Both the position numbers and the translations under genes were made by a program. Of a stretch of DNA of 64,000 nucleotides, positions 18,111 to 34,193 are shown one piece after another. Each line of letters starts with the position of its first letter. Positions within the stretch are counted from its first letter, which is position 1. Below the pieces are notes generated by a model. That model made no database searches and had not been told where the DNA came from. It saw nothing but the letters and a program-made list of their open reading frames with translations. Source of the DNA: Cloacibacillus sp. An23 (GTDB lineage: Bacteria; Synergistota; Synergistia; Synergistales; Synergistaceae); contig NZ_NFJQ01000006.1 in the NCBI RefSeq assembly GCF_002159945.1, positions 124,001 to 188,000 on the forward strand, given 5' to 3'.

Positions 18111-19076
18111 TCACGCCCGCCTGCCGGTAAGCTGGCGGCACGTAACCGCGGATACGACGCCCTCCCCACGAGGTCTCTTGTGGGAAGCGTCACTGTGATG
18201 GTGCGGCTCTCTCGCCGTGACCGACGATTGGCAAATCTGTAATTTGCTTAGCAATATCTTCCGGCGAATAGAACTTATGCGCTTATGCGACGCGTAAAAA
18301 TATTCGTTATCGTTCCTGTGTGATCTTTCCGCCTTCCCGTTATGACGCGGCGTATACGGCTTTATCAGCTTATGCCTTATCACGCACTGCTCCAAATGAT
18401 TTTCAAAGAGCGTAGGTTTGTCTTTGTCAGAGGTAAACCGGTTCGTAAATTCCGTCCTGTTGTCGCTATGGACACATTTCACACGAAATTTGAAGAACCT
18501 CAGCATATGCGTCAGGAATGCTGCCGAGCTGTACGTGCTGTATTCTTCAGCTTCGACATAGCGGAAACGGCTATACTCGTCTATCGCAGTATATTGATAG
18601 AACTGTTTCCCCTCCGCTTCTCCGACGAGGCACGACTTCGGCACGAACTTAACGTCCACCTGTACGCGCTGCCCTGGATACTGCATTCGCTCGTTGGGCT
18701 TGGAAACGCATTTAGGGTTAGGCAGAGTGATGCGTACGGCTCCGATACGCTTCATCACCCTATAGAGAGCTGAAATGCTTCTGGAGTATCCTCTTTTCCT
18801 CAGTTTAACCAAAAGTACTACAAGCCTTGTGTTCTTGTTATGCCTCAGCATATTCCGTATAAGCAGGAGCTCCGCCGGAGAATGTTCATTCGGATGATGG
18901 CGTGGACGCCTCGACTTGTCACGAAAGGATTCGAGAGAACCATCGTAACGCTTCATCCACCTGTAAACATACTGCCTGTTCGTGGCATACCGTGCGGTGG
19001 CTTTAGTAACGCCGTACTTTATCGCGTACTTGATAAGAGATTGCCTGTAACGTTTCTTTTGTGATATTTTACTCAT
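18111..19076 (-). pseudogene. IS481/IS3-like (rve) transposase, 3'-truncated
   Basis: Reads MSKISQKKRYRQSLIKYAI at the N-terminus with a HTH (GVTKATARYATNRQYVYRWM). The rve catalytic core follows, with QVDVKF (D1), VHSDNRTEF (D2; Arg where Gly is usual) and HNGKAERSHR plus the Glu-containing helix. After FYASHKRISSI the sequence leaves the family and runs into GC-rich flanking DNA, so the last ~60 residues are missing or replaced. Nearly the same DNA recurs, with an internal deletion, at ~31000-31440. The copy is probably inactive by itself. Confidence 0.8.
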
Positions 19077-19189
19077 GCGGGAAACCGTCCACCTGTCAGT
19101 GGATTTGTGGTGAAATTACTTTACAGCATGGACAGGCTTCCCGCTTTTGTTTTGTGTTTTCTTGCGTATTCACATTAACTCATATCTTA

Positions 19190-19704
19190 CATATATTGAG
19201 TCTTATATACCTCTGCTCTCTGTTGCATAGGTATGGTAAATCTACAGGCTTTATATCTCGTATGAATCTCGAACATATTGACAATGATGGCTTCTATTCT
19301 GTCTATTATGGCATTATCAATACTGCCTTCATTAAAGACAAATGCCGCTTCATCAACATATTGCTGCAAATGCTTCCAAGAAACAGAACTATAATTCCCC
19401 TGATTCGGGATTTTAAATTACTTCCAAAAGCCCTCAATCGTGTTGGTATGAACGTCACCGTCAACATATTAACCCGTATTATGATTGACTTTCCCGTGTT
19501 CATAACCAAAATCTTTAAACTTGTCATAAGCCGTAAACTCATATGTGTAAATAATAGAATCGGCCAAGACAAGCTAACTAAAAATACCTAACAAAGTTTC
19601 AAACTTTGTATTGTCAATAACTTTAGTACCGACATACCCGCTTCTTGCAATCATGCAAAATACGGCTGTTTTACCAGCCGCACCACGCTTTGTATGAGCC
19701 TTAC
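19190..19704 (-). pseudogene. ISXO2/IS1595-like transposase remnant
   Basis: Minus-strand reading with several in-frame stops still shows the family order: KRGAAGKTAVFCMIARSG, then YVGTKVIDN, a degenerate middle (YTYEFTAYDKFKDFGYEH), then VHTNTIEGFWK and the terminal helix FNEGSIDNAI. The N-terminal zinc-finger part is absent; the right end abuts the regulator at 19705. Lower GC than the host chromosome. Confidence 0.75.
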
Positions 19705-20250
19705 TTATGATATTGGTGGAGCACAAACAGTTAGAAGTTCTATTATTTGATGCAATGGATTTGAAAACGTAAAAGGTTTAGCAGCATCGTAATAAATGCT
19801 GTCGCCTGGATGAAGATCATATGTAGCCCCTTCGTACTGGAAACGTAGTTGGCCTTTCACAACTATCATAAATTCTTCTCCATCGTGAGAAGAAAAGAAA
19901 TATTCTGTATTCGGAAGAATTGTTATATAAGTGGCCTGCATTTTTTTCCCGTTTGCACCTCCTTGTAGTGGCTCGTATATCAAAGTTTTATTATCAGACC
20001 ATAGACGCTTTCGTTCAGCTTTACGTACCACAACATCTTGACTAAGTTCTGTCTCAAAAAAATATACGATTGGTACCCCATAAAACTGAGCTAACCTTCG
20101 TAAGGTTGAGATTGTCGGTTCAACTTTTCCAGTTTCTAGCTGGCTTAAATAACTAGCTGATAAGCCAACGCCGCTGCTTACATCTTTGAGATATAGCTTT
20201 TTTCGTTTCCGTAAATTTTTTAGTTTTTCATGCAATAATTCGTGACTCAA
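19705..20250 (-). CDS. XRE-family regulator with C-terminal cupin (PuuR-like)
   Basis: About 181 residues from a TTG at 20250, chosen because GGAG lies ~8 nt upstream; an ATG seven codons earlier (20271) has no RBS. An HTH_3 domain occupies ~10-65 (LYLKDVSSGVGLSASYLSQL, then TISTLRRLAQFYGVP) and a Cupin_2 beta-barrel ~105-180 (SHDGEEFMIVVKGQL, LHPGDSIYYDA). Such proteins sense small molecules in the cupin pocket and control amine, amino-acid and betaine catabolism. It is divergent from the lyase-TRAP cluster and the only intact regulator in the island, so it is the best candidate regulator of that cluster. Confidence 0.85.
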   Translation of the reverse strand: MSHELLHEKLKNLRKRKKLYLKDVSSGVGLSASYLSQLETGKVEPTISTLRRLAQFYGVPIVYFFETELSQDVVVRKAERKRLWSDNKTLIYEPLQGGANGKKMQATYITILPNTEYFFSSHDGEEFMIVVKGQLRFQYEGATYDLHPGDSIYYDAAKPFTFSNPLHQIIELLTVCAPPIS

Positions 20251-20421
20251 TATAAACACTCCAATGTTCATAACATCTATAATTTTAATATAATTCTAAA
20301 CAAAAATTTTTAACATTTTTGCTTACATCATACTTTGTCTATGATATATTATTTCGTCATATTTATGCAAACAAAAAATGTTATAGTAATTTAACTACAT
20401 ATCATATACATATATACTATA

Positions 20422-21279
20422 ATGTATCCACGACAAGATATTCTAAAGGCCTAAGAGAACGCGCTATAAAATATCTTTTATCCGGGCACTCCTACAGAGA
20501 AACGGCTAAAACATTCAACGTCGGTACGCCTGCACTCGGACAATGGAAGAAAATGCTGGAAGAACAGGGAGATTTTCAAGATAAGCCTTGCAGAAAGTAT
20601 TTCAGAAAAATAGAGCCTAAAAACTGGAAGAATATCTCCGAGAGCATCCCGACTCCTATCTTCGAGAAATAGCTGGAGTATTCGGCTGCTCCATCGCCGC
20701 AGTCTCCAAAACTCTGAAATCTATGGGGTACACCAAGAAAAAAGAACGTCACATACAAAGAGCAGGATGTCCAAAAAGTAATCGAGTATCTGCAAAAGAT
20801 AAGGATATACGGCCGGAAACAGTCGCTTATATAGATGAGACTGGGATAGACAGAGCTATATCTACAGAGAGCGCGCCTGGTCGAAAAGAGGAGTCGGGAT
20901 TCCAGGCCGTATAAGCGGTAAGACGTATAAAAGGGTAGGCCTGGCCGCAGCATTGTACCGAGGCCAGCTGACAGAGCCTATGCAGTACGAAGGCACGATT
21001 GACGGAGAACTATTTGAAGAATGGCGAAGAAAGTTTTTATGTCCAGCCTTGGAATATGGGAGTACGCAGATAATGGACAACGTATCATTCCACAGTAAGA
21101 AAAAAGTTAAGGATATAGCAAGCAGTTTTGGACATAGGGTAATATTCTTCCCGCCGTACTCGCCTGAGCTTACCCATATAGAGCGTTGCTGGGCCGCATT
21201 AAAAAAGACTCTGAAAGGCGTTATTGATTCTGTTGCATCCATTGATGACGCTTTGCGTATATGTTTACAAAGAAAATGA
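20422..21279 (+). pseudogene. IS630-family transposase, frameshifted
   Basis: Three frames together give one IS630 transposase. The HTH part is YSKGLRERAIKYLLSGHSYRE to MLEEQGDF. The frame changes near 20625 to EEYLREHPDSYLREIAGVFG, again near 20795 to TVAYIDETGI (first Asp), and again near 20870. The last stretch holds IMDNVSFHSKKK (second Asp) and SPELTHIERCWAALKK (Glu). At least two frame breaks make it a pseudogene unless programmed slippage is used. Confidence 0.8.
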
Positions 21280-21429
21280 CTATATAACAGATTTTGAAAA
21301 AATCGACTAAAGGATGTTTTTTACTGCAGAATCTACGCTGTCAAGAAGTCTATGGTTTTGCTAAACGCCCTATTGATAGTTATGCTTGTTTATATTATCA
21401 AATTAATGGGTTAGAGATGGGAATATAAT

Positions 21430-21459
21430 TTGACATTATCAAATTTATATGATTAAATT
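21430..21459 (+). promoter_or_regulatory. Putative promoter/operator of the lyase-TRAP cluster
   Basis: TTGACA (21430-21435), 17-18 nt spacer, TTAAAT/TAAATT -10. The spacer contains the imperfect dyad ATCAAATTTATATGAT, a candidate operator for the HTH-cupin regulator. It is ~75 bp upstream of the first lyase RBS. Confidence 0.5.
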
Positions 21460-21533
21460 ACATCATTGAGAAACATATAATTTTTAGGTGCCTTTTTAAC
21501 AAATTCAATATTAATACTTGGGGGGGAGCTATT

Positions 21534-23120
21534 CTGAATAGATCTCTAGGTAATGGTTTTGCTAAAATAGGTTATGCGTCCGAAATTTCGCAGGTTGAAC
21601 TGGGAACACATGATATTACGCTTGTTGAATTCATAGCGATAGTACGTTATAACAGTAAAGTCGTGTTAACTCCAGAGTATGTTGAACGAGTAAAAAAATC
21701 TAGAACCCTAGTTGAAAAGTTCCTTAATGAGAACAGGGCTATCTATGGATTGACAACAGGTTTTGGCGATAACGTAAGGAAGGTTATTCCCCAAAGTGAA
21801 GCAGAAAGGCTTCAGCGCAATATTATACGTTCACATGCTGTAAGCGTAGGAGAACCTCTATCAGAAGAAGGAGTACGTGCTCTGTGGTTGATGCAATTAC
21901 TAAGCTTAGGGCGCGGATATTCTGGTATTAGACCTGATGTTTTGACTCTCATTGCAGAATGTCTTAACAGAAAAGTGTATCCATATGCGCCTTCAGAAGG
22001 AAGCATACAAAATCTTCCAGTTGAAGGTTATGTAAACTTAGTCCTTATGGGGGAAGGGCAAGCTTGGCTAGGCAATCAGCTTGTGACTGGACATGAAGCA
22101 CTAAAATCAGTTGGATTAGATCCGCTATCTCCAGCCTGCAAAGAAGGGTTATGCCTCACTAATGGCATTAACGGGGCAGAGGGACTTGCTCTTATTGCAC
22201 TACATGACTCTATTTTGGCGGCTCAGACAGCTGATATTTCAGGTGCTATGGCTTTCGAGGTACTGCGAGGTACATTGTTGGGATGCGATTATAGGCTTCA
22301 TTCGCTTAAAGAGCATCCTGAACAGGCTGGATGCGCTGCGAATATCAGATTGATATTGAGTGACAGTGAAATAGCCGCTAATTCAATGTATCACAGAGTG
22401 CAAGATCCGTACGTTATACGCTGTATTCCTCATGTTCATGGGGCAGCAAAACGCTTCATGAAGGATGTCTCAATTAGTCTTATTAGAGAAATGCTATCTT
22501 GTAATGATAACCCCATAGTGTGGCCAGATGGCAACGGAGAAGGTTTGATGGGGTCAAATTTCGACGGAACTTACGTTGGAGCCGGTTCTGATATTCTTTG
22601 CATGGCGTGCGCAAATATTGCCAAAATCTCTGAGAGACGTACAGATAAGCTTACTAATCAGAGTTTAAGCGGAGGTTATCCTGCGTTTTTAGCTGATAAA
22701 CCTGGGGTGGACAATGGATATATGATAGCCCAGTATACCGCATCTGCGCTTGTCAATGAAATTAGAGGACTCTGCATTCCCGCCACATCAGACAGCGTTC
22801 CAGTCAGTGCGAACTGGGAAGATCCTATTAGCATGGCTTGGTGGGCTGCAATGAAAGCAGTACACGTTGCTTGTAAGCTACAATATGTAATCGCCATAGA
22901 ATTAATGACTATGTCACGAGCTTTTGATCTAACTCGTGTAGAATACGGACACTTTTCAAGTGCTACACAATCGGTACATGACAAGATACGGGAAGTTGTG
23001 CCTTATATAAAAGGCGACAGGTATTTGGGGCCTGATATAGAAGCCATTTATTCCATGGTAAAAAATGGTGATATTGTAAAAAATGTTCAGGCCCGTATCG
23101 GTACTACACTGGCATTTTAA
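21534..23120 (+). CDS. HAL/PAL-fold lyase paralogue 1 (subtype A), MIO triad absent
   Basis: 528 residues if started at the CTG at 21534, which has GGGGGGAG 5 nt upstream. This start aligns residue for residue with the ATG starts of the paralogues; the first in-frame GTG (21663) would delete the conserved LVEFIAIVRY helix. The aromatic amino-acid lyase fold is clear: IYGLTTGFGDN (catalytic Tyr), RSHAVSVGEPL (His), GLCLTNGIN (Asn), VQDPYVIRCIP (Gln/Tyr/Arg), GSNFDGT and ANWEDPISM (Glu). Where lyases have GASGDL, which cyclises to MIO, this has GSIQNL, so no MIO can form. A cofactor-free elimination, as reported for ergothionase, is the leading hypothesis; substrate unknown. Confidence 0.85.
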   Translation: MNRSLGNGFAKIGYASEISQVELGTHDITLVEFIAIVRYNSKVVLTPEYVERVKKSRTLVEKFLNENRAIYGLTTGFGDNVRKVIPQSEAERLQRNIIRSHAVSVGEPLSEEGVRALWLMQLLSLGRGYSGIRPDVLTLIAECLNRKVYPYAPSEGSIQNLPVEGYVNLVLMGEGQAWLGNQLVTGHEALKSVGLDPLSPACKEGLCLTNGINGAEGLALIALHDSILAAQTADISGAMAFEVLRGTLLGCDYRLHSLKEHPEQAGCAANIRLILSDSEIAANSMYHRVQDPYVIRCIPHVHGAAKRFMKDVSISLIREMLSCNDNPIVWPDGNGEGLMGSNFDGTYVGAGSDILCMACANIAKISERRTDKLTNQSLSGGYPAFLADKPGVDNGYMIAQYTASALVNEIRGLCIPATSDSVPVSANWEDPISMAWWAAMKAVHVACKLQYVIAIELMTMSRAFDLTRVEYGHFSSATQSVHDKIREVVPYIKGDRYLGPDIEAIYSMVKNGDIVKNVQARIGTTLAF

Positions 23121-23141
23121 TGCATGAGAAAGGAAAATATC

Positions 23142-24725
23142 ATGGATCGAGTGGCAAAACTAGATATAGTAAAACTTAGTAAATGCATTACAATTCAAAA
23201 TGTTTGTATCGGTCCAGGCCCACTTCCCTTAGAAGAATTTATTGCCGTGGTACGATATGGAGCAAAGGTTAAGTTTTCGGACGAGTATAGGCAAAGGGTC
23301 GTCAGATCCCGCATTCTCGTAGAAAAAATCCTTGACGAAAATAGGGTTGTGTATGGTCTTACTACTGGTTTTGGCGATAATGTCAGGACAATTATCCCAC
23401 AGGAAGAGGCAATCGAACTACAATACAATATATTGCGCTCTCATGCCGTATCTGTAGGAGAGCCACTGCCTGAGGACGAAGTACGGGCTATATGGCTTAT
23501 GCAATTATTAAGTTTGGGCAGAGGGTATTCCGGTATTAGAATGGAAATGCTGGATTTGATAGCTCAATGCTTGAACAGTGGGATTTATCCATTTGTACCC
23601 AGATTCGGATCAGTTCAAGCTCTTGTTCTAGAAGCAAATGTAAATCTTGTCCTCATAGGTGAAGGACAGGCTTGGTACAAAGGTGAGCTGCTTACCGGCG
23701 CAGAAGCATTGCAAAAGGCCGGATTAAGCCCATTGGCTCCAGCTTGTAAAGAGGGGCTATGTTTAACAAATGGCGCAAACTCTGCCACGGGGCTTGCTGC
23801 ACTGGCACTATATGACTCCCTTATAGCTGTACAGACAGCGGACGTCTCTGCGGCAATGTCATATGAAGCACTAAAGGGGAATATTCTAGCTTGCGATCCT
23901 CGGTTGCATTCAGTGAAAGAGCATCCTAATCAAATTACCTGTGCTGAGAATATAAGGATTCTTTTACACGATAGTTCTATAATGGAAAACAACAAAGGTC
24001 AAAGTGTACAAGATCCTTTAGCGCTTCGGTCAGTGCCCCAAATGCATGGTGCAGTAAAGCGATATTTAGCAGACGCAGGGACAGATATTTTAGAAGAAAT
24101 GGCATCGTGCAGCGATAATCCTGTTTTATGGCCTGATGGAGACGATGGCGTAGCTCTGATGGGAGCAAATTTTGATAGTACGTTTTCCAGCGGAGCTGCT
24201 GACATTATCTCTATAGCGGATTCTAATTTAGCGAAGCTTCTAGAGCGCAGAATAGACAAGCTTACAAACAGAAATTTCAGTGGCTACCCGGCATTTCTAG
24301 CAGCAAAGCCGGGTGTAGACAACGGTTACATGATACTACAATACACAGCTGCTGGGCTTGTCAATGAGATTCGAGGATTGGCGCTTCCTGCGACGGCTGA
24401 TAGCATTCCGACGTGTGCGAACTGGGAAGATCCTGTAAGTATGGGACTGCTTGCTTCTCAGAAAGCTCTTGATATTGCACAAAAACTACAATACATCGTC
24501 GCCATAGAGCTCATGGTCACTTCCCGTGCTTTTGACTTGTTTACTGAAGGCGTAGGTTGCTTCGCGTCTGCGACGCAAGCTGTACGCGACAAGATTCGTA
24601 CGATAGTACCACCAATGACGGGGGACAGACATCTTAGTCCTGAGGTAGAAAAAGTCAAGAAAATAGTCTCGGAAGGTGAAATTATCCGCGTTGCTGAAAC
24701 ATATGTCGGAAATCTTGGCTATTAA
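23142..24725 (+). CDS. HAL/PAL-fold lyase paralogue 2 (subtype B), MIO triad absent
   Basis: 527 residues from ATG 23142 (AAGGAAAA RBS); this start matches paralogue 3 exactly in length to the EEF-AVxRY helix, so the ATG at 23124 is rejected. Conserved: VYGLTTGFGDN, RSHAVSVGEPL, GLCLTNGAN, ANFDST, ANWEDPVSM. The MIO position reads GSVQAL. Unlike subtype A, the second catalytic Tyr is Leu (VQDPLALRSVP) and the Asn-rich motif is CSDNPVLW. ERRIDKLTNRNFSGYPAF differs from the GGYP form of subtype A. These differences imply a different substrate or mechanism from its neighbours 1 and 4. The gap to paralogue 1 is 21 bp, so they share an operon. Confidence 0.87.
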   Translation: MDRVAKLDIVKLSKCITIQNVCIGPGPLPLEEFIAVVRYGAKVKFSDEYRQRVVRSRILVEKILDENRVVYGLTTGFGDNVRTIIPQEEAIELQYNILRSHAVSVGEPLPEDEVRAIWLMQLLSLGRGYSGIRMEMLDLIAQCLNSGIYPFVPRFGSVQALVLEANVNLVLIGEGQAWYKGELLTGAEALQKAGLSPLAPACKEGLCLTNGANSATGLAALALYDSLIAVQTADVSAAMSYEALKGNILACDPRLHSVKEHPNQITCAENIRILLHDSSIMENNKGQSVQDPLALRSVPQMHGAVKRYLADAGTDILEEMASCSDNPVLWPDGDDGVALMGANFDSTFSSGAADIISIADSNLAKLLERRIDKLTNRNFSGYPAFLAAKPGVDNGYMILQYTAAGLVNEIRGLALPATADSIPTCANWEDPVSMGLLASQKALDIAQKLQYIVAIELMVTSRAFDLFTEGVGCFASATQAVRDKIRTIVPPMTGDRHLSPEVEKVKKIVSEGEIIRVAETYVGNLGY

Positions 24726-24754
24726 TTTTTAAATTTAGCAGAAGGAGGATCTGT

Positions 24755-26335
24755 ATGGACGAAATATATATGCTTACTCCAGAGAAGATCGGAAGAGCTA
24801 ATAATATATATACAGTAATATTAGACAAGGCACCAATCAGTATTGAAGAGTTCGTAGCCGTCGCGCGTTATCACGCAATCGTTGAGTTTTCACAAGAATA
24901 TATTGATAGAGTCATTGCATCGAGAAACCTTGCTGCTAGATTTTTGGATGAAAATAGAAAGATATACGGCTTAACAACTGGATTTGGCGAGAATGTAAAC
25001 AGAATTATTCCCCAAGATGAAGCTGTGGAGCTGCAAATCAATATAATTAGATCTCATGCAACCTCAGTAGGGAAGCCTTTAAAGGAAGAAGCTGTGCGAG
25101 CCGTGTGGCTTATGCAGCTCCTTAGTTTAGGCAAGGGATTTTCTGGAATTCGTATTGAGACACTTTTCCTGATAGCTAACGCTCTTAATGTAGGACTTAC
25201 TCCTTATGTTCCAGGAGAAGGCTCTGTACAGTATTTGGCTATTGAGGCGCAAATGAACCTTGTCCTGATGGGAGAAGGAAAGGCATGGTACAAAGGACGC
25301 CTTTTAGCTGCTAATGAAGCTTTATATGAAGCAGGACTTAAGCCTTTTGTCCCTGCCTGTAAGGAAGGGCTGTGTCTGACCAACGGAGCTAACTCAGCAA
25401 CTGCGCTCGCTGCATTAGCCCTATATGACTGTGCCGTTGCAGTTCAGACTTCCGATATTGCAGCCGCAATGTCATACGAAGCACTTAAAGGAAATATTCT
25501 AGCTTGTGACCCTAGAGTACAGTCGCTAAAGGAGCATCCGCATCAGGCTGCGTGTGCCAGAAACATAGTCCGCCTGCTTAGCGACAGCGGGATCGCGTCT
25601 AAATATAAGGGCGCGCGTGTGCAGGATCCACTAGCATTGAGATCCATTCCGCAGATGCACGGCGCGATAAAATGTATGATTCAAGATTGCGCCAAGGACA
25701 TTCTGGAAGAGATGGACTCGTGCAGCGATAATCCAATTCTTTGGAATGCACCTAACGAAGAATGCGGTTTGATGGGAGCAAATTTTGACGGTACCTACGC
25801 AAGCGGAGCAGCAGATATTTTGTGTATAGCATCAGCAAATTTAGGCAAGCTTTTGGAACGTCGCATAGATAAACTCACAAATCGCCATTTTAGTGGATAT
25901 CCAGCATTTCTGGCAGAAAATCCGGGGGTAGATAACGGATATATGATAGTCCAATATACTGCGGCAGGCTTACTAAACGAAATCCGAGGCTTGTCTTTAC
26001 CTTCAACGGCGGACAGTATTCCGACATGCGGTAACTGGGAAGATCCAGTAAGTATGGGGTGGTGGGCCTCTCGCAAAGCATGGTATGTTGGGAAGAAAAT
26101 ACAGTACATAGCTGCAATAGAAATTATGACATTGTGTAGAGCTTTTGACTTAGAAAAAGAGGATGCATGTTTCTCTTCAGCGACAAGCGCAGTACATGAC
26201 AAAGTACGTTCTGTTGTACCGCCAATCACTGAAGATCGTCACTTTGGGCCGGATATAGAAAAAGTATTCAGCTTAGTGCGAAGTGGAGAAGTTATAAAAA
26301 CGGCTGAAGAAATTACCGGGACTCTCGAATTTTAG
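24755..26335 (+). CDS. HAL/PAL-fold lyase paralogue 3 (subtype B), MIO triad absent
   Basis: 526 residues; ATG at 24755 with a strong GAAGGAGG RBS. Closest in motifs to paralogue 2: GANSAT, VQDPLALRSIPQMHG (Leu for Tyr), CSDNPILW, ERRIDKLTNRHFSGYPAF, DSIPTCGNWEDPVSM. The MIO position reads GSVQYL. It keeps IYGLTTGFGEN, the RSHATSVGKPL His and the GLCLTNG Asn. Lies 29 bp after paralogue 2. Cytoplasmic, probably a homotetramer as in the family. Confidence 0.88.
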   Translation: MDEIYMLTPEKIGRANNIYTVILDKAPISIEEFVAVARYHAIVEFSQEYIDRVIASRNLAARFLDENRKIYGLTTGFGENVNRIIPQDEAVELQINIIRSHATSVGKPLKEEAVRAVWLMQLLSLGKGFSGIRIETLFLIANALNVGLTPYVPGEGSVQYLAIEAQMNLVLMGEGKAWYKGRLLAANEALYEAGLKPFVPACKEGLCLTNGANSATALAALALYDCAVAVQTSDIAAAMSYEALKGNILACDPRVQSLKEHPHQAACARNIVRLLSDSGIASKYKGARVQDPLALRSIPQMHGAIKCMIQDCAKDILEEMDSCSDNPILWNAPNEECGLMGANFDGTYASGAADILCIASANLGKLLERRIDKLTNRHFSGYPAFLAENPGVDNGYMIVQYTAAGLLNEIRGLSLPSTADSIPTCGNWEDPVSMGWWASRKAWYVGKKIQYIAAIEIMTLCRAFDLEKEDACFSSATSAVHDKVRSVVPPITEDRHFGPDIEKVFSLVRSGEVIKTAEEITGTLEF

Positions 26336-26359
26336 CACACAGCTAGGAAGGGGTTTAGA

Positions 26360-27949
26360 ATGGAGCATACATTGACCAATATTCCTAAAGTCGGATGGGC
26401 AGACACGATACAGAGTGTTACTTTAGGAACGAAGTCGTTGTCACTGGAAGAATTTGTGGCGGTGGCTAGATACAACGCTAAATTAACGCTTTCTCAAGAG
26501 TATTTGGAAAGAGTCTTCCAGTCTAGAGCGTTAGTTGAAAAATTCCTCGACGAGAATAGAGCTATTTACGGGCTTACGACAGGGTTTGGAGATAATGTCA
26601 GAACTGTAATACCACAAGAGGAAGCGGTGCATCTGCAGATCAATATTTTGCGATCTCACGCTGCTTCTGTGGGCAAGCCCATGTCACCGGAGTGCGTAAG
26701 GGCTACTTGGCTCATGCAGTTGTTGAGTTTAGGTCGCGGGGTCTCGGGAATACGTCCGCAGATGCTTTCTCTTATTGTGTCGTGTCTTAATGCAAACATA
26801 ATTCCCTATGCGCCAGGTGAAGGTTCAATTCAGTCTCTCTCTGTAGAGGCAAATATAAATCTTGTCCTCATAGGGGAGGGACAGGCATGGTATAACGGAG
26901 AACTGCTTCCTGGGGCTGCAGCATTAAACAAAGCAGGGTTAAAACCATTGGCCCCAGCTTGTAAAGAAGGGCTATGCCTGACAAATGGGATTAACGGCGC
27001 TACTGGTATCACTTTGATAGCGCTATATGACAGTATGGTTGGAGCTCAGACAGCCGATATCGCAGCTGCTATGGCTTACGAAGCTCTACGCGGTACGATA
27101 AAAGGATGCGACGCAAGGTTGCACGCGCTTAAACACCATTCAGAGCAGCAAGGCAGTGCAGAGAACATAAGAAACATTTTGGCCGACAGCAGAATTATGG
27201 CTAAGTATATGGATTCAAGAGTGCAGGATCCATATATACTACGATCAATACCCCAAGTACATGGAGCTGCAAAGCGTTTTTTAAAAGATGCAGCTACGTC
27301 CTTGATTCGTGAAATGGCATCGTGTAACGATAACCCCATAGTTTGGCCAAATGGTAACGGAGATGGAGAAGGTCTAATGGGGGCAAATTTTGATGGAACT
27401 TATGTAGGTGCTTATGCCGACACTATCTGTATAGCCGACGCTAACCTAGGTAAGTTCTCAGAGCGAAGGACGGACCGCCTTACCAATAGACATTTCAGTG
27501 GAGGGTATCCTCCATTTTTAGCGGACAATCCTGGAGTGAACAACTGCTACATGATTGTCCAATATACCGCGGCAGGTCTGGTAAGCGAAATAAGAAATCT
27601 CTGCATCCCAGCTACCGGTGACAGCATACCTGTTAGCGCAAACTGGGAAGACCCTATACCTATGGCATGGTGGGCAGCTATTAAGTCTAAAGCTGTGTCG
27701 GAAAAATTGGAATACTTAATTGCAATTGAAATTATGGTGCATACTAGGGCATTCGATTTGACTGACACTAAAGTACACGGGACTTTTGCAAGTGCCACTA
27801 TAGACGTACATGATCTAGTAAGATCAAAAGTGCCATATATAACTGGCGACAGGTATTTTGGCTCAGACATAGAAACGACCTATCAGATGGTAAAAAGCGG
27901 AGAAGTCCTCAAAACAGTAGAAAAACGTGTAGGTAAACTTATATTTTAG
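26360..27949 (+). CDS. HAL/PAL-fold lyase paralogue 4 (subtype A), MIO triad absent
   Basis: 529 residues; ATG at 26360 after AGGAAGGGG. Shares subtype A features with paralogue 1: GINGAT, VQDPYILRSIPQVHG (Tyr kept), CNDNPIVWPNGNG, ERRTDRLTNRHFSGGYPPF, DSIPVSANWEDPIPM (Pro where others have Ser). The MIO position reads GSIQSL. Retains catalytic Tyr, His, Asn, Gln, Arg and Glu positions of the fold. Last lyase of the cluster; the TRAP binding protein begins 39 bp downstream, so import and breakdown are co-expressed. Confidence 0.88.
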   Translation: MEHTLTNIPKVGWADTIQSVTLGTKSLSLEEFVAVARYNAKLTLSQEYLERVFQSRALVEKFLDENRAIYGLTTGFGDNVRTVIPQEEAVHLQINILRSHAASVGKPMSPECVRATWLMQLLSLGRGVSGIRPQMLSLIVSCLNANIIPYAPGEGSIQSLSVEANINLVLIGEGQAWYNGELLPGAAALNKAGLKPLAPACKEGLCLTNGINGATGITLIALYDSMVGAQTADIAAAMAYEALRGTIKGCDARLHALKHHSEQQGSAENIRNILADSRIMAKYMDSRVQDPYILRSIPQVHGAAKRFLKDAATSLIREMASCNDNPIVWPNGNGDGEGLMGANFDGTYVGAYADTICIADANLGKFSERRTDRLTNRHFSGGYPPFLADNPGVNNCYMIVQYTAAGLVSEIRNLCIPATGDSIPVSANWEDPIPMAWWAAIKSKAVSEKLEYLIAIEIMVHTRAFDLTDTKVHGTFASATIDVHDLVRSKVPYITGDRYFGSDIETTYQMVKSGEVLKTVEKRVGKLIF

Positions 27950-27988
27950 TCTTTCAAAATATCACAATAATATAGAGAGGTGTCCTTT

Positions 27989-28999
27989 ATGAAACGTGAA
28001 CGTTTGTATTTTTATTTGATGGCTATAGTTTGTACAATTATTTGTATCGAGACTGCCGAAGCTAAGCCCATGACGCTGAAGTTTGCAGGAATTAATCCAA
28101 TCGAGCATTCTTCTACAGTTGAGATGAAAAAACTTGCACAAAATGTTGAGGCAGCAACGAATGGTGAAGTAAAAGTAAGGGTGTTCCCTGCTGGTCAGTT
28201 GGGCGACTATAGCCTTGTCTATGAAGAAATTACCAAAGGAACTATAGATATGGCTCTCATCCCGATTCCGACAGAATATGAATCTAGGCACCAGATAACA
28301 ATGGTACCAGGACTTGTCAGAAATTATGATGAGATAGGTGAGGTTTTCGCGAGGGATGGCTGGCTCTACAATGTGGTAAAAGATCTTCACGAAGGGCTTG
28401 ACGTTGTATTTCTAGGCTTCCAAATAGAAGGTTTTGGCGGAATAGGATCATCTAAAGAAATAAGTGATCCGCTAAATCCCGACACCCCGAAAAATATGCT
28501 TTGCCGTATTTCGACAATGGAACTAGACAAAATGGTTATGGATGCTCTGGGTTATCCCACGGTTACAATACCTTATTCAGACCTCTACACCGCGCTTCAG
28601 ACCGGCGTAGCTGAAGGTTGGTACGGCGGTGCGGCAATTCACACATATCAGAGTTTCAGAGATGTTCTTGACTATTGGTATAATTTTAACTTGTTCCTTG
28701 AAACCTACCAGTTCGTTGTCTCAAAGCAAAGTTGGGACAAGATGACACCTGAACAGCAGAGAATAATCGCGACTGAAGCCGAGGCACTTTGCGTCAACAG
28801 CATAGACATAGCGAAAAGCGAAGAAAAAGACTGCCTTGAAAAGATGAAAGAGGCGGGGATGAATGTTTATATTTATAGTTCCGATGAACTAGAACCTATC
28901 AATCATCAGATAAGAACGAAGGTATGGCCGCAGCTCGACCAACTGCTTGGAAAGGAACTTACGGACAGTCTGATGAAAGAATTTTTGACCGATAAGTAA
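27989..28999 (+). CDS. TRAP transporter substrate-binding protein (DctP family)
   Basis: 336 residues from ATG 27989 (GAGAGG RBS, 9 nt). Signal peptide ~1-25 (hydrophobic YFYLMAIVCTIICIE, cleavage near AEAKP). Mature part is DctP-like: FAGINPIEHSSTVEMKKLA at the N-terminus, VRVFPAGQLGDY, GTIDMALIP, and the Arg-containing strand NMLCRISTMELD where the family salt-bridges the substrate carboxylate. It delivers a carboxylate to the permease pair downstream. The substrate is probably that of the lyases (an amino-acid betaine or related acid). Confidence 0.9.
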   Translation: MKRERLYFYLMAIVCTIICIETAEAKPMTLKFAGINPIEHSSTVEMKKLAQNVEAATNGEVKVRVFPAGQLGDYSLVYEEITKGTIDMALIPIPTEYESRHQITMVPGLVRNYDEIGEVFARDGWLYNVVKDLHEGLDVVFLGFQIEGFGGIGSSKEISDPLNPDTPKNMLCRISTMELDKMVMDALGYPTVTIPYSDLYTALQTGVAEGWYGGAAIHTYQSFRDVLDYWYNFNLFLETYQFVVSKQSWDKMTPEQQRIIATEAEALCVNSIDIAKSEEKDCLEKMKEAGMNVYIYSSDELEPINHQIRTKVWPQLDQLLGKELTDSLMKEFLTDK

Positions 29000-29013
29000 A
29001 GGATAGAGAGAAG

Positions 29014-29037
29014 GAGCGGGAGAAAATTCTTCCGCTC
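29014..29037 (+). promoter_or_regulatory. Intra-operon mRNA hairpin after dctP
   Basis: GAGCGGGAGAA/TTCTTCCGCTC (one G-U), with almost no loop and no U-run. This arrangement usually stabilises the upstream binding-protein mRNA, giving more DctP than permease. Confidence 0.6.
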
Positions 29038-29063
29038 TAATCCTTAGAAAGGAAGGAAAAACA

Positions 29064-29570
29064 TTGTTTCTAAAAAAGCAGAGAAATTTCTTAGTTACTT
29101 TTGAAGAAGCTATTCTTGTGATTCTCGGATTAGCAGTTCCTCTTATGGTTGCGCTCGGTGTATTCTTCCGCTATATCCTAAAAACAGATCTATTCGGTAT
29201 CGAAGAAATTGAAATCTTTTGCGCTATGATCCTCTATTTTATCGGCGCTGCTTACGCAAGCTATAAAAAACAGCAGATAACGGCGGATTTGACCCAGTCA
29301 ATGATAAAAAGTTTTAAGATACGCAAATTCTTTGCTATTGTTTCAACCTTCTTAGCCTTAGTTGCAGTAGGAGCATTTACATACTGGACTATAGATCTAG
29401 TTCAATATGCTGGACTTAGAAATCCTAAAACATCAGTTTGGAAAATACCGTTGGTTTGGGAGTATATCATGATTTTTTGGGGATTTTTTGTAATGACATT
29501 ATGTGCGGCTAGAGACTTTTACAACGCTCTCACAAGAAAGCCTGAAGCGTCTGTGGATTCCGAAAAGTAA
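29064..29570 (+). CDS. TRAP transporter small permease (DctQ family)
   Basis: 168 residues from TTG 29064 (GGAAGG RBS). Four hydrophobic segments (~14-36, ~50-68, ~88-108, ~128-150). DctQ hallmarks: VFFRYILKTDLFGIEEIEIF around 38-58 and a Lys/Gln-rich loop after helix 2 (YKKQQITADL). Partners the large permease that follows by 21 bp. Confidence 0.88.
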   Translation: MFLKKQRNFLVTFEEAILVILGLAVPLMVALGVFFRYILKTDLFGIEEIEIFCAMILYFIGAAYASYKKQQITADLTQSMIKSFKIRKFFAIVSTFLALVAVGAFTYWTIDLVQYAGLRNPKTSVWKIPLVWEYIMIFWGFFVMTLCAARDFYNALTRKPEASVDSEK

Positions 29571-29591
29571 TTAAGGAAGGAGAATGGTGTA

Positions 29592-30890
29592 ATGGTTGTA
29601 TCTGGTCTTTTATTCCTACTTATAGGTCTAGTAATTGGCATTCCAGTCCCTTTTGCGTTTTTTCTAACTGCGATGTATTTTCTGCTCACCGGGGATTACG
29701 CGACGACTTTTATGGTGCCTTACGCCGTAAGAAATCTTAGTAATACTGTTATATTTTCAATTCCTTTGTTTATCCTAGCCGGTAAACTTATGGAACGCGG
29801 TAATATCGCTGATAAACTGATCGGATTAGTTGAAGAAACTGTAGGTAGATTAAAAGGTGGACTTGGAATAGTAGCTACTGTTTCATGTGCAGTTTTTGGT
29901 TCGGTTACCGGTAGTGCCGCTGCAACGCTTACGTGCATAGGTTCTATAATGATTCCAAGGATGGAGAAAGCAGGCTATCCTAGAGGTCATTCTACAGCTC
30001 TATTAGCTAACTCTGCTGTGTTGGGTATGCTGATTCCACCAAGCGGTATTATGATACTTTATTCTTGGGTCGGCGGACAGTCTGTTTTGGCAAGCTTTCT
30101 TGCAACAGTGTTGCCTGGTATTGCCCTGACAATTTTATTCTCCATCATAAATTGCGTTTTATTGCGGAATAATGCGAATATTATAATTCCAGCTATATCA
30201 CAGGAAGAAAAGACATTCCAGCATAAATGTATGCGTATTAAAAAAGCATCTCCGGCCTTGATGATGCCAGTAATAATATTAGGCGGCATATATAGTGGCA
30301 TAATGACTCCAACTGAAGCAGCTGCCGTAGCCGTAATATATGCCATTCCTGTTGGAATGTTTATATATAAAGGACTTACAGTAAAAGGACTCAAAGAAAC
30401 GCTCATAGATTCCGGCATGGCAACTGGGACTATTATGATTATGATGTTCGGATGTTCAGTTTTGGCTAGAATGTTTGTCGAAGAAGATCTTCCTGGTGCG
30501 ATACTAAAACTACTGTATTCTATCTCGACAGATCAGAAAATGATTCTCCTTATGTTAAACATATTCATGATTATACTAGGCATGCTTGTAGACGATACAA
30601 GCGCAGTGCTTCTCGCTACTCCTATTATGATTCCAATAATACAAGAAATAGGTGTTAGCCCAGTACATTTCGCAGCAATAGTAGCCGTTAATTCTGGAAT
30701 GGGCAACATAACTCCTCCGTGTGCTCCACTTTTGTATCTATCCGGAGCCATTGCAAAATGTCCAATAAATGAAACGCTTCGCGTCACTGGATGGTTAATA
30801 TTACTTGGATGGCTCCCCATCCTTATTTTAACGACATACGTTCCTGAATTTTCAATGTGGTTACCACGTCTGGTTCTTGGGATAAAATAA
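29592..30890 (+). CDS. TRAP transporter large permease (DctM family)
   Basis: 432 residues, ~12 helices. Family motifs: AGKLMERGNI, FGSVTGSAAATLTCIGSIM (~98-116), NSAVLGMLIPPSGIMI (~137-152), IYSGIMTPTEAAAVAV (~233-248), and the C-half NSGMGNITPPCAPLLY. Completes a canonical DctPQM set in the island. Low GC like its neighbours. The transcript runs into a hairpin at 30940-30982. Confidence 0.92.
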   Translation: MVVSGLLFLLIGLVIGIPVPFAFFLTAMYFLLTGDYATTFMVPYAVRNLSNTVIFSIPLFILAGKLMERGNIADKLIGLVEETVGRLKGGLGIVATVSCAVFGSVTGSAAATLTCIGSIMIPRMEKAGYPRGHSTALLANSAVLGMLIPPSGIMILYSWVGGQSVLASFLATVLPGIALTILFSIINCVLLRNNANIIIPAISQEEKTFQHKCMRIKKASPALMMPVIILGGIYSGIMTPTEAAAVAVIYAIPVGMFIYKGLTVKGLKETLIDSGMATGTIMIMMFGCSVLARMFVEEDLPGAILKLLYSISTDQKMILLMLNIFMIILGMLVDDTSAVLLATPIMIPIIQEIGVSPVHFAAIVAVNSGMGNITPPCAPLLYLSGAIAKCPINETLRVTGWLILLGWLPILILTTYVPEFSMWLPRLVLGIK

Positions 30891-30939
30891 TGTAGGTTTG
30901 TCAAACATCTGTTACATCGAGCCTAAAGAGTGAGTTATG

Positions 30940-30982
30940 ACTTCCCGAGGAGACTTCCTGCTAAGGGGTCTCATAGGGAAGT
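30940..30982 (+). terminator. Hairpin after the TRAP operon
   Basis: ACTTCCC (30940-30946) pairs with GGGAAGT (30976-30982), and GGAGAC with GTCTC inside; no strong U-run. Possibly a terminator or the outer edge of the IS copy. Confidence 0.4.
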
Positions 30983-30989
30983 TATTGTA

Positions 30990-31440
30990 TCTGTGGTTAT
31001 GCACGGCCAGCTGCTTTGCAAAATCTTCCAGAGAATAGAATTGATGCGACGCATAAAAATATTCGTTATCCTTCCGGTGTGATCTTTCCGCCTTCCCGTT
31101 ATGACGCAGCGTTTACGGCTTTATCAGCTTATGCTTTATCGCGCACCGCTCCAAATGACTTTCAAAGAGCGTAGGTCTGTCTTTGTCAGAGGTAAACCGG
31201 TTCGTAAATTCCGTCTCGTTGTCGCTAAGGACGCATTCCACACGAAATTTGAAGAACCTCAGCATATGTTTCAGGAATATTGCCTGTTTGTTTCGTATTT
31301 TGTTGCAGCTTGGGTAACGCCGTACTTCATTGCGTATCTAATAAGCGATTGTGTGTAACGTTCCTTTTGTGATATCTTACTCATGCTGGAATCGTCCTCC
31401 TAGTGGATTTGCGGTGAAATTACTTTACGGCATGGACGTG
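30990..31440 (-). mobile_element. Internally deleted second copy of the rve-type IS
   Basis: DNA from ~31025 to 31265 matches the transposase at ~18260-18510. It then jumps, losing roughly 500 bp, to sequence matching 19000-19150, including the same N-terminal codons and the end region GTGAAATTACTTTAC-GCATGGAC. Same orientation as the first copy. Together they bracket the lyase-TRAP island like a decayed composite transposon. Confidence 0.75.
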
Positions 31441-31838
31441 TTTCCCGCTTCTTCATCCGGTTCTCTGTCACATATGTACGGTAAACATACGATGCCATAC
31501 TGAATAGTCCGGCGGCCGACCTTGACAAGGTGTATTACGCGTGCGCTGCAAGCAGTGGCGCAAAAGTTCCGTCAGAGCTGTTTAACGCTTTACCAGCTAA
31601 GGACTTTGCGTAAATTGCGAGAGCAGTGTAGAGTTTTTGCTCGTAATATAGGAGAACAGCCGGCACAAATTATCCGTGAGGTATGCTGCAGTCTGAACTT
31701 GGCTACGCATACCCCCTATTTCTTTCTGGCTGGAATTGAGTACAGCAAAAATAAAAAAGTGGATGCGGGCAATATCAAAAGCACGGAAATATCAATCGGC
31801 GTGCCCGTGCTATAATTAAACTGACGATTTTCTGGGAT
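31441..31838. other. Unassigned stretch right of the IS remnant
   Basis: A 97-codon forward frame (31522-31815) exists but has no RBS and no recognisable family. A TATAAT at 31812-31817 could serve the next gene. Probably decayed mobile DNA. Confidence 0.35.
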
Positions 31839-31850
31839 GTGTATAAAAGC

Positions 31851-32111
31851 ATGGAAACAAGTTTTAGATCCTATGACAAGCAAAATGATACTGAAACGGA
31901 ACAAAAATGCTTTGACCTCCACCCAAGAGTAAAAAGCCCTGGGAAAATATATTCTATTGTTTTGGGGATATACCTGGCTGCTTTTTTTATAGGTCTATGG
32001 TTTGCATATGATCTAGCGGGAGGTATTGGGGTATTGATGTATCTGGTCCTCGTCGTGGGCGTTGGGAGCGGATTATATGAAGCGTCTATACTTCTCTTTC
32101 CAGAAACGTAG
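31851..32111 (+). CDS. Small two-helix membrane protein
   Basis: 86 residues from the ATG at 31851 (a second ATG at 31839 is possible; neither has a clear RBS). Polar first ~35 residues, then two hydrophobic helices (IYSIVLGIYLAAFFIGLWFA and GIGVLMYLVLVVGVGSGLY). Followed by a strong terminator. No family recognised; prophage-neighbour context. Confidence 0.5.
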   Translation: METSFRSYDKQNDTETEQKCFDLHPRVKSPGKIYSIVLGIYLAAFFIGLWFAYDLAGGIGVLMYLVLVVGVGSGLYEASILLFPET

Positions 32112-32774: not shown

Positions 32775-34193
32775 ATGAAACAGATCAGATTCACGGACAT
32801 TACGCTGCGCGAGGCTTCGCGCTGCGGAGAAGGGGCCCTTTCGTTCAAGGAGATAATCGAGGAGGCGAAGATTCTCGACAGGCTTAATCTCGACGTTATC
32901 AGCCTCGCGCCGATAGAGAACGAAAAAATAGACTCGCTGCTCGTGCGCACCGTCGCCGCGGCGGTCAAGAAGAGCGCGCTTTCGATTCCCGTCGGTTTCG
33001 AGGAGGGCGGCGTCGAGACTGCGTGGAACGCCGTGGCCGAGGCGGCGCATCCGAGGCTTTACGTAGAAGCCCCGACCTCCACCGTGCAGATGGAGTTCGT
33101 ATGCAACAAGAAGCCGGACGGAATTATCAAGATGATAGAAACGCTTGTCGCGAAGAGCCGCGCTCTCTGCCCGGACGTCGAGTTTGCGGCGGTGGACGCG
33201 ACGCGCAGCGAGCCGGAGTTCCTTTACCGCGCGCTGCGCACGGCGATAGCCGCCGGCGCCACGACCGTGACGGTATGCGATTCGGCGGGCATGATGATGC
33301 CGTACGAGTTCAGCAATTTCGTGAAAGAGCTTTACGCGAATGTGCCGGAGCTTGAGAACGTGACGCTCGGCGTTAAATGCTCGGACGAGTTGTCGATGGC
33401 GGCGGCCTGCGCAGTTTCCGCCGTCCGCGCCGGAGCCTCCGAGGTGGACGTGACGGTTGGCGGCGGCTGCGCGCCGGAGCTGGAGGCCGCTGCGCAGGTC
33501 ATCCGTATGCGCGGCGACGACTACGACTATTCGTGCGGCCTGAAGTACACGGAGCTGCACCGCTCAGTCGCGCAGATGAACTGGATTACGCGCAGGGAGC
33601 GCAGCAAGACGAGCGCCTTCGAGACGGGCATGGCGATCTCCGACGGCTCCGACGTGCGCCTCGACGCGAACGACGACATCGACGCTCTGACGAAGGTCGT
33701 CGCGCGCCTCGGCTACGAACTCTCCGACGAGGATATGGCGAAGGTCTATGAAACTTTCGTGAGCGTGGCGCGCAAGAAGTCGGTCGGCACGAAGGAGCTC
33801 GAGGCTATAATCGCTACGACTGCGCTGCAGGTGCCGCCGACCTACGAGCTCGTCAGCTACGTCATAAACAGCGGCAACATCATCAGCGCGACGGCGAACA
33901 TCCACTGCCGCAAGAACGGCGCGGACCAGTTCGGCCTCGCGGTCGGCGACGGCCCGATAGACGCGGCCTTCCTCGCGATAGAGCAGATAACGGGACACCA
34001 CTACGAGCTCGACGACTTCCAGATACAGGCCGTAACGGAGGGGCGCGAGGCCATGGGCTCGACGCTCGTCAAGCTCCGCTCGAACGGCAAACTCTACGCG
34101 GGCAACGGCATTTCGACGGACATCATCGGATCGAGCATCATGGCGTATTTCAACGCGCTGAATAAGATTTCGTACGAGGAGAATCACAGATAA
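32775..34193 (+). CDS. LeuA-like (isopropylmalate synthase family) protein lacking the HxH metal motif
   Basis: 472 residues; ATG 32775 after AGGAGAGG. TIM-barrel domain 1 to ~275 begins FTDITLREASRCGEGALS, a divergent form of the DTTLRDGEQ metal/substrate motif (Asp and Arg kept). The second signature, normally HCHNDLGLA, reads VKCSDELSMA: both metal-binding His are lost. The usual NGIGERAGN is GGGCAPE. The C-terminal ~110 residues are a LeuA-type allosteric dimer domain (SATANIHCRKNG, GDGPIDAAFLAI, TDIIGSSIMAYFNAL), the leucine-binding part in true LeuA. A leucine T-box in front agrees with a leucine-related role, but ordinary condensation chemistry is doubtful. Its stop overlaps the next start (TAATG). 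Confidence 0.8.
   Translation: MKQIRFTDITLREASRCGEGALSFKEIIEEAKILDRLNLDVISLAPIENEKIDSLLVRTVAAAVKKSALSIPVGFEEGGVETAWNAVAEAAHPRLYVEAPTSTVQMEFVCNKKPDGIIKMIETLVAKSRALCPDVEFAAVDATRSEPEFLYRALRTAIAAGATTVTVCDSAGMMMPYEFSNFVKELYANVPELENVTLGVKCSDELSMAAACAVSAVRAGASEVDVTVGGGCAPELEAAAQVIRMRGDDYDYSCGLKYTELHRSVAQMNWITRRERSKTSAFETGMAISDGSDVRLDANDDIDALTKVVARLGYELSDEDMAKVYETFVSVARKKSVGTKELEAIIATTALQVPPTYELVSYVINSGNIISATANIHCRKNGADQFGLAVGDGPIDAAFLAIEQITGHHYELDDFQIQAVTEGREAMGSTLVKLRSNGKLYAGNGISTDIIGSSIMAYFNALNKISYEENHR

Follow-up and report, generated by a model that had tools for sequence, protein, structure and literature searches.

Histidine ammonia-lyase (HAL) carries 4-methylideneimidazole-5-one (MIO), an electrophilic group to which the amino group of the substrate becomes bound so that ammonia can leave, and its active sites are assembled from three subunits. 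The roles of pocket residues used below are those known from established HAL work and from general knowledge of the family. Ergothionase, a lyase of the same superfamily, is free of MIO and releases trimethylamine (PMC13405746); trimethylammonium has been described as a good leaving group (PMC8364193). Here we analyse a stretch of 64,000 nucleotides from Cloacibacillus sp. An23 (the window), in which four adjacent head-to-tail genes of family PF00221 on the plus strand (21534-27949), termed W1 to W4, encode lyase-like proteins that lack the MIO-forming Ala-Ser-Gly triad. Residue positions are given in the numbering of Pseudomonas putida HAL. The four genes and their loops are located as follows.

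21534..23120, plus strand: W1, PF00221 lyase without MIO, loop GSIQNL, Tyr at HAL position 280; a CTG start is preferred, GTG 21663 being the alternative
21999..22016, plus strand: shortened MIO loop of W1 (GSIQNL)
23124..24725, plus strand: W2, PF00221 lyase without MIO, loop GSVQAL, Leu at HAL position 280; HAL fold in an AlphaFold2 model
23607..23624, plus strand: shortened MIO loop of W2 (GSVQAL)
24755..26335, plus strand: W3, PF00221 lyase without MIO, loop GSVQYL, Leu at HAL position 280
25220..25237, plus strand: shortened MIO loop of W3 (GSVQYL)
26360..27949, plus strand: W4, PF00221 lyase without MIO, loop GSIQSL, Tyr at HAL position 280
26822..26839, plus strand: shortened MIO loop of W4 (GSIQSL)

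The original prediction of four tandem genes with a HAL/PAL fold was borne out by the matches to PF00221 (E-values 1e-139 to 1e-150, 464-500 bits), and the loss of Ala-Ser-Gly, with the four loop motifs as predicted, was recovered in the alignment. The proposed gapless replacement of GASGDL by GSIQNL, however, turned out to be a misalignment. The GS pair of the window proteins corresponds to the GS of GSVGASGDL, and the HutH loop becomes GS[IV]Qx---L by a three-residue deletion. Relative to the HutH of the same genome, GSVGASGDLCPLSH is aligned with GSIQN---LPVEGY, the same GS pair being followed by a three-residue gap at Ala-Ser-Gly. The catalytic positions predicted to be retained are indeed kept in all four proteins with respect to Y53, H83, N195, Q277, R283 and E414, but Tyr280 is found only in W1 and W4 and is replaced by Leu in W2 and W3 (VQDPLALR). 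These six residues, together with N313 and F329, which W1-W4 likewise share, also persist in nearly all members of the nearest branch of relatives. Position 280 is the sole difference among W1-W4 at the pocket positions checked, Q413 and H416 being exchanged for Trp and Pro throughout (NWEDP vs NQEDH). A literature search on the roles of active-site tyrosines in TAL found nothing. The AlphaFold2 model of W2 (predicted local distance difference test, pLDDT, 91.3; predicted template modelling score, pTM, 0.93) matches the structures of HAL, tyrosine aminomutase and ergothionase over their full length (Z 41-45), and the comparison with HutH and ergothionase structures (template modelling score, TM, 0.84-0.92) agrees with the predicted fold.

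From the loop deletion, the retained pocket residues, the position in the tree, the gene context of relatives and the predicted fold we infer a reaction, its substrate, a route of import and a reason for the presence of four copies. The explanation that we tentatively prefer, and to which we concede slightly less than an even chance, is that W1-W4 are active MIO-free HAL-fold trimethylamine-lyases acting on N-alpha-trimethyl amino acids and most likely converting hercynine to urocanate. A trimethylammonium group is unable to add to MIO and needs no activation to depart; MIO would thus be unneeded and its Ala-Ser-Gly precursor could be deleted. Mechanistically, the Tyr at the position of HAL Tyr53 would take the beta-proton from the N-alpha-trimethylated amino acid, Arg283 would hold the carboxylate and the HAL-type residues His83 and Glu414 the imidazole, and trimethylamine would depart directly without an MIO activation step. 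In the branch characterized by Asn195 and Phe329, which includes W1-W4, hercynine (histidine betaine) would be cleaved into urocanate and trimethylamine. The urocanate might feed the hut pathway, HutU being encoded in the genome, and the substrate might be imported by the adjacent tripartite ATP-independent periplasmic (TRAP) transporter.

The loss of the catalytic prosthetic group could also mean that W1-W4 are non-catalytic paralogues which serve as binding proteins or regulators. We find this scarcely credible, since all other tested catalytic positions except 280 are conserved and the relatives reside within catabolic operons. Moreover, each of the four copies, which share 56-67% mutual identity, appears to be under purifying selection, as indicated by saturated synonymous sites and nonsynonymous divergences (dN) of 0.29-0.39 in the pairwise comparisons.

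The genome encodes seven PF00221 proteins, namely one canonical HutH, two ergothionase-type proteins and W1-W4. The HutH contains the loop GSVGASGDL and scores 672 bits against TIGR01225, the HutH equivalog model, while W1-W4 reach 461-472 bits and stay under its cut-off of 539 bits. The ergothionase-type proteins, encoded on another contig (C3), carry the loop GSVGEADI and have PDB entry 6s7j as best structural match (1e-146 and 1e-131). It is very improbable that W1-W4 are ordinary histidine ammonia-lyases whose activity is independent of MIO or relies on a non-canonical MIO built from other residues, although the HAL pocket residues are kept and the short-loop proteins of this family found in sampled plasmid records are annotated as 'histidine ammonia-lyase'. 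Besides the insufficient score, their loop retains no X-Ser-Gly, and the step would be redundant because a canonical HutH is encoded in the same genome, elsewhere in the genomes of the hut-linked Bacilli described below and in most other examined genomes with a short-loop lyase.

Scanning 84,980 species genomes yielded 71 loci, most of which encode proteins with 40-55% identity, distributed over Pseudomonas, Streptomyces, Mycobacterium, Bacilli, Clostridia, a Calditrichales, a Neomarinimicrobiota and a deltaproteobacterium. Relatives of full length share the shortened loop, usually as GSVGYL or GSVAYL, with a conserved Glu two residues further, and Ala-Ser-Gly is missing throughout the 42-row short-loop clade, whose consensus loop is GSVGYL. 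After the loop columns had been removed, tree building placed the short-loop proteins in one group (Shimodaira-Hasegawa-like approximate likelihood-ratio test, SH-aLRT, 100) and the ergothionases in a separate one (SH-aLRT 100 after leaving out the three oddest rows). The window proteins nest within the short-loop clade (SH-aLRT 97-100) and constitute a fully supported subgroup with L146, a single-copy protein of a different genus in this family; inside this subgroup W1 pairs with W4 (99) and W2 with W3 (96). A similar loop occurs in two Pseudomonas proteins (GSVGYLTHM and GSVGYISHM) which the tree places outside the main short-loop group. The phylogeny thus yielded separate, well supported groups, while a common MIO-less ancestor was not rejected (approximately unbiased, AU, test, p 0.47 for short-loop proteins and ergothionases as one clade). 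The tree is therefore compatible with one loss of MIO or with more, and we do not claim independent losses in the two groups. Among 188 genomes of the phylum, the GS[IV]Q subtype was found in only three, and it is multi-copy only in this genome. Judging by sequence, W1-W4 belong to a widespread and routinely mis-named short-loop MIO-less family. No characterized member of this clade was found among solved structures or in the open-access literature searched, and no hercynine lyase or MIO-less HAL besides ergothionase in the open-access literature, subscription papers not being covered in either case.

The gene neighbourhoods of the relatives provide separate information on the product and on the leaving group. 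In Brevibacillus (L013) and Aneurinibacillus (L015), the genes for a major facilitator superfamily (MFS) transporter, the MIO-less lyase, AraC, HutG, HutU and HutI stand in one row in which the lyase occupies the slot of HutH; in Fictibacillus (L023), HutU and HutI are positioned upstream of the MFS transporter and the lyase. At five Pseudomonas loci HutU lies downstream of the lyase, most of them also having an ATP-binding cassette (ABC) transporter of the basic-amino-acid type. The HutU proteins beside the lyase in these Bacilli and in Pseudomonas (L034, L038) obtain 990-1017 bits as urocanases (990-1015 in the Bacilli) and at most 745 bits with the models for thiourocanate and S-methylthiourocanate hydratases. 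By score they are true urocanases, which makes urocanate the probable product of the hut-linked branch.

Members of the clade from Clostridia and elsewhere lie next to betaine/choline/carnitine transporters (BCCT), sodium:solute symporters (SSS) and PrdR-like sigma-54 regulators. In 21 genomes, a BCCT gene lies within 2 kb of 17 of the 56 divergent PF00221 genes, compared to 0.19 expected, and near only one of 26 canonical genes, which also neighbours a short-loop gene. The split between divergent and canonical genes at 590 bits is a proxy, and the divergent set mixes ergothionase-type genes, which serve as positive control, short-loop genes and a few divergent MIO-bearing genes, so that the BCCT figure supports the group and not each member. 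Genes of the MttB family are located 96-185 bp from divergent lyases in the Calditrichales and in the deltaproteobacterium Smac51, and farther away in Cuneatibacter and one Synergistota genome; their proximity to divergent and canonical genes does not differ significantly (Fisher P 0.55). The BCCT enrichment together with the MttB and urocanase neighbours fits the earlier idea of MIO-free lyases which follow the precedent of ergothionase and act on betaines, except that W1-W4 are not ergothionases themselves.

The HutU/HutI/HutG context fixes urocanate as the product better than it fixes the leaving group, and no BCCT gene stands beside the lyase at the Pseudomonas and Bacilli loci. Both points would agree with the departure of a different alpha-substituent in place of trimethylamine, such as dimethylamine, the hydroxyl group of imidazole lactate or an acylamino group. 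We regard this as improbable because the BCCT enrichment and the MttB adjacency elsewhere in the clade point to trimethylammonium, and no enzyme serving such alternatives was recognised among the recurrent neighbours.

Several observations weigh against a hercynine trimethylamine-lyase in the window. MttB is absent from the An23 genome, and no BCCT, MttB or hut gene was found beside W1-W4 in the window operon, only TRAP genes; a link of the window locus to MttB or BCCT was dropped on these grounds. The solved relatives of the TRAP solute-binding protein DctP are all distant (best E 1.5e-19), and no ligand is inferable from them. At least one divergent gene beside BCCT (L179) keeps a Cys-Ser-Gly triad, indicating that the BCCT link is not limited to MIO-less proteins. 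The hut-linked Pseudomonas and Bacilli loci have neither BCCT nor MttB adjoining the lyase, so that the urocanate-linked and the trimethylamine-linked loci belong to different branches and we infer the complete reaction by joining its two halves across them. Trp413 is confined to the window subgroup, whose substrate may thus differ from that of the hut-linked branch, and the neighbours of the sister gene L146 are an SNF-family symporter, a molybdenum hydroxylase and a TRAP set, not hut genes.

These last two features, together with the TRAP transporter found here unlike in the hut-linked branch, would also suit lyases of the same chemistry whose substrates are one or more quaternary betaines besides hercynine, be they betaines of aromatic amino acids (hypaphorine, phenylalanine betaine) or further ones derived from histidine. 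The individual copies might then each be tuned to one of them, in line with the 56-67% identity among the copies and the alternation of Tyr and Leu at position 280. This is a serious alternative, albeit a rather unlikely one, as the unchanged residues H83, E414 and F329 favour imidazole-type substrates. Going beyond hercynine cleavage by W1-W4, the short-loop clade as a whole might represent an undescribed class of MIO-free hercynine trimethylamine-lyases which feeds the hut pathway in several phyla, with adjacent Tyr280 and Leu280 paralogues (W1/W4 and W2/W3) forming hetero-tetramers. The latter is conceivable because three subunits contribute to each active site of HAL, but we consider this extended proposal unlikely.

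If trimethylamine release from hercynine proves true, genes of Pseudomonas, Streptomyces, Bacilli and gut Clostridia named 'histidine ammonia-lyase' would code for trimethylamine-releasing enzymes acting on dietary or microbial histidine betaine and would constitute an additional source of trimethylamine in gut and soil bacteria which is hidden by annotation. The HAL family would then offer a natural experiment on the need for MIO, which would be dispensable once the leaving group is activated.

The four lyase genes belong to the same operon as the TRAP transporter genes, with intergenic gaps of 3, 29 and 24 bp between W1/W2, W2/W3 and W3/W4. The surrounding features are listed below.

27980..28999, plus strand: TRAP solute-binding protein DctP (PF03480), presumed substrate importer, 30 bp past W4
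29064..29570, plus strand: DctQ, TRAP small permease (PF04290)
29592..30890, plus strand: DctM, TRAP large permease (PF06808)
19705..20271, minus strand: XRE-cupin transcriptional regulator of PuuR-like organisation, divergent to the operon and possibly its regulator
20319..21279, plus strand: broken transposase (DDE_3), located between the regulator gene and the operon; a sign of a mobile island
18111..32000, no strand: low-GC island delimited by GC content, limits approximate

The island is flanked by insertion sequences (IS) and has mostly 37-46% GC compared to ca. 60% on both flanks; the low-GC stretch was presumably acquired horizontally. At position 21534, W1 shows none of the codons ATG, GTG and TTG but a CTG, which GGGGGGGAG precedes by five bases. 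A start at GTG 21663, the first of the common codons, would drop 43 residues which are alignable with the paralogues, and no earlier ATG, GTG or TTG exists in frame. Translation of W1 seems to begin at CTG 21534 (segment 21531-21536) behind the putative ribosome-binding site GGGGGGGAG. In a promoter and terminator scan, matches were no more frequent than in shuffled sequences. Further downstream in the window, a single frame predicted to encode 844 residues (34193-36727, plus strand) appears to combine a sugar-isomerase-like TIM barrel with a subsequent AMP-forming acyl-CoA synthetase; it comes right after a gene resembling isopropylmalate/homocitrate synthases (32775-34193).

Additional observations concern the PF00221 genes outside the window. 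The two ergothionase-type genes of the An23 genome on contig C3 (L008:7732-9243 and L008:15115-16635, both minus strand, GEAD loop) have a BCCT gene 77-171 bp away, and these pairs suggest that the organism uses ergothioneine or a related betaine. A molybdenum hydroxylase (XdhA-like) is encoded near most ergothionase-type genes and near L146 (L146:3528-5852, minus strand). Neighbouring pairs of short-loop genes occur in Clostridia (L014, L056, L058, L065, L068, L072, L075, L078), one partner usually having Tyr280/Phe329 and the other Leu280 with Ala, Cys or Pro at 329, which recalls the Tyr/Leu mix of the window; the side-by-side arrangement of the two types hints at paired function or mixed oligomers. 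A second type of short-loop lyase (L280, A/C329, Y416) resides in a recurrent cassette (L150:5881-10691, minus strand; also at L145, L149, L153, L158, L160, L075 and L014, some loci being incomplete) together with a protein of ca. 325 residues ending in two 4Fe-4S motifs, a protein of ca. 180 residues without Pfam family and an SSS symporter. Smac51 (G139, the genome of locus L030), a member of the Deltaproteobacteria from cockroach hindgut, encodes 25 MttB-family, 16 BCCT and 7 PF00221 genes and is apparently a quaternary-amine specialist. In two other Synergistota genomes, PF00221 is divided into adjacent complementary part-genes (L147:3888-6245, minus; L148:12462-14861, minus; L165:8108-10545, plus; L166:10414-12757, minus). 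One gene of each pair provides Y53, H83, the loop GSTGLSDL, N195 and E414, and its partner Q277, R283 and the C-terminus; from their residue content, these pairs look like obligate two-subunit lyases.

Among the described systems, HutH is the closest in fold and pocket. W1-W4 share with P. putida HAL (PDB 1b8f, EC 4.3.1.3) ca. 34% identity, a fold with TM 0.88-0.92 and the residues Y53, H83, N195, Q277, R283, F329 and E414. They differ from it in the loop shortened by the three residues Ala-Ser-Gly, in the replacements of Q413 by Trp and of H416 by Pro, in Leu280 of W2 and W3 and in scores below the HutH equivalog level. With ergothionase of Treponema denticola (PDB 6s7j) and its relatives, W1-W4 have in common the PF00221 fold without MIO and, in W2 and W3, Leu280. 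The BCCT neighbours of ergothionase are also common to other members of the short-loop clade, and the elimination of trimethylamine is the proposed analogy. Assignment of W1-W4 as ergothionases was rejected because their loop is devoid of the GE[AG]D motif, position 195 is Asn and they are placed in the short-loop clade. The ergothionase loop has a one-residue deletion, in contrast to three residues in W1-W4, the identity amounts to 26%, and N195 is Ser, Cys or Thr in ergothionase-type proteins. Furthermore, the hydratases linked to the wider short-loop clade are urocanases and not thiourocanate hydratases. In the tree the two kinds of proteins stand in separate groups (SH-aLRT 100 each), although a common MIO-less clade is not rejected. 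The GSVGYL proteins of the short-loop clade, finally, match W1-W4 in loop length and share roughly 40-55% identity with them, whereas the window has GS[IV]Q for GSVG and NWED for NQED, a tandem of four copies and a TRAP transporter in place of BCCT, SSS, ABC or MFS systems.

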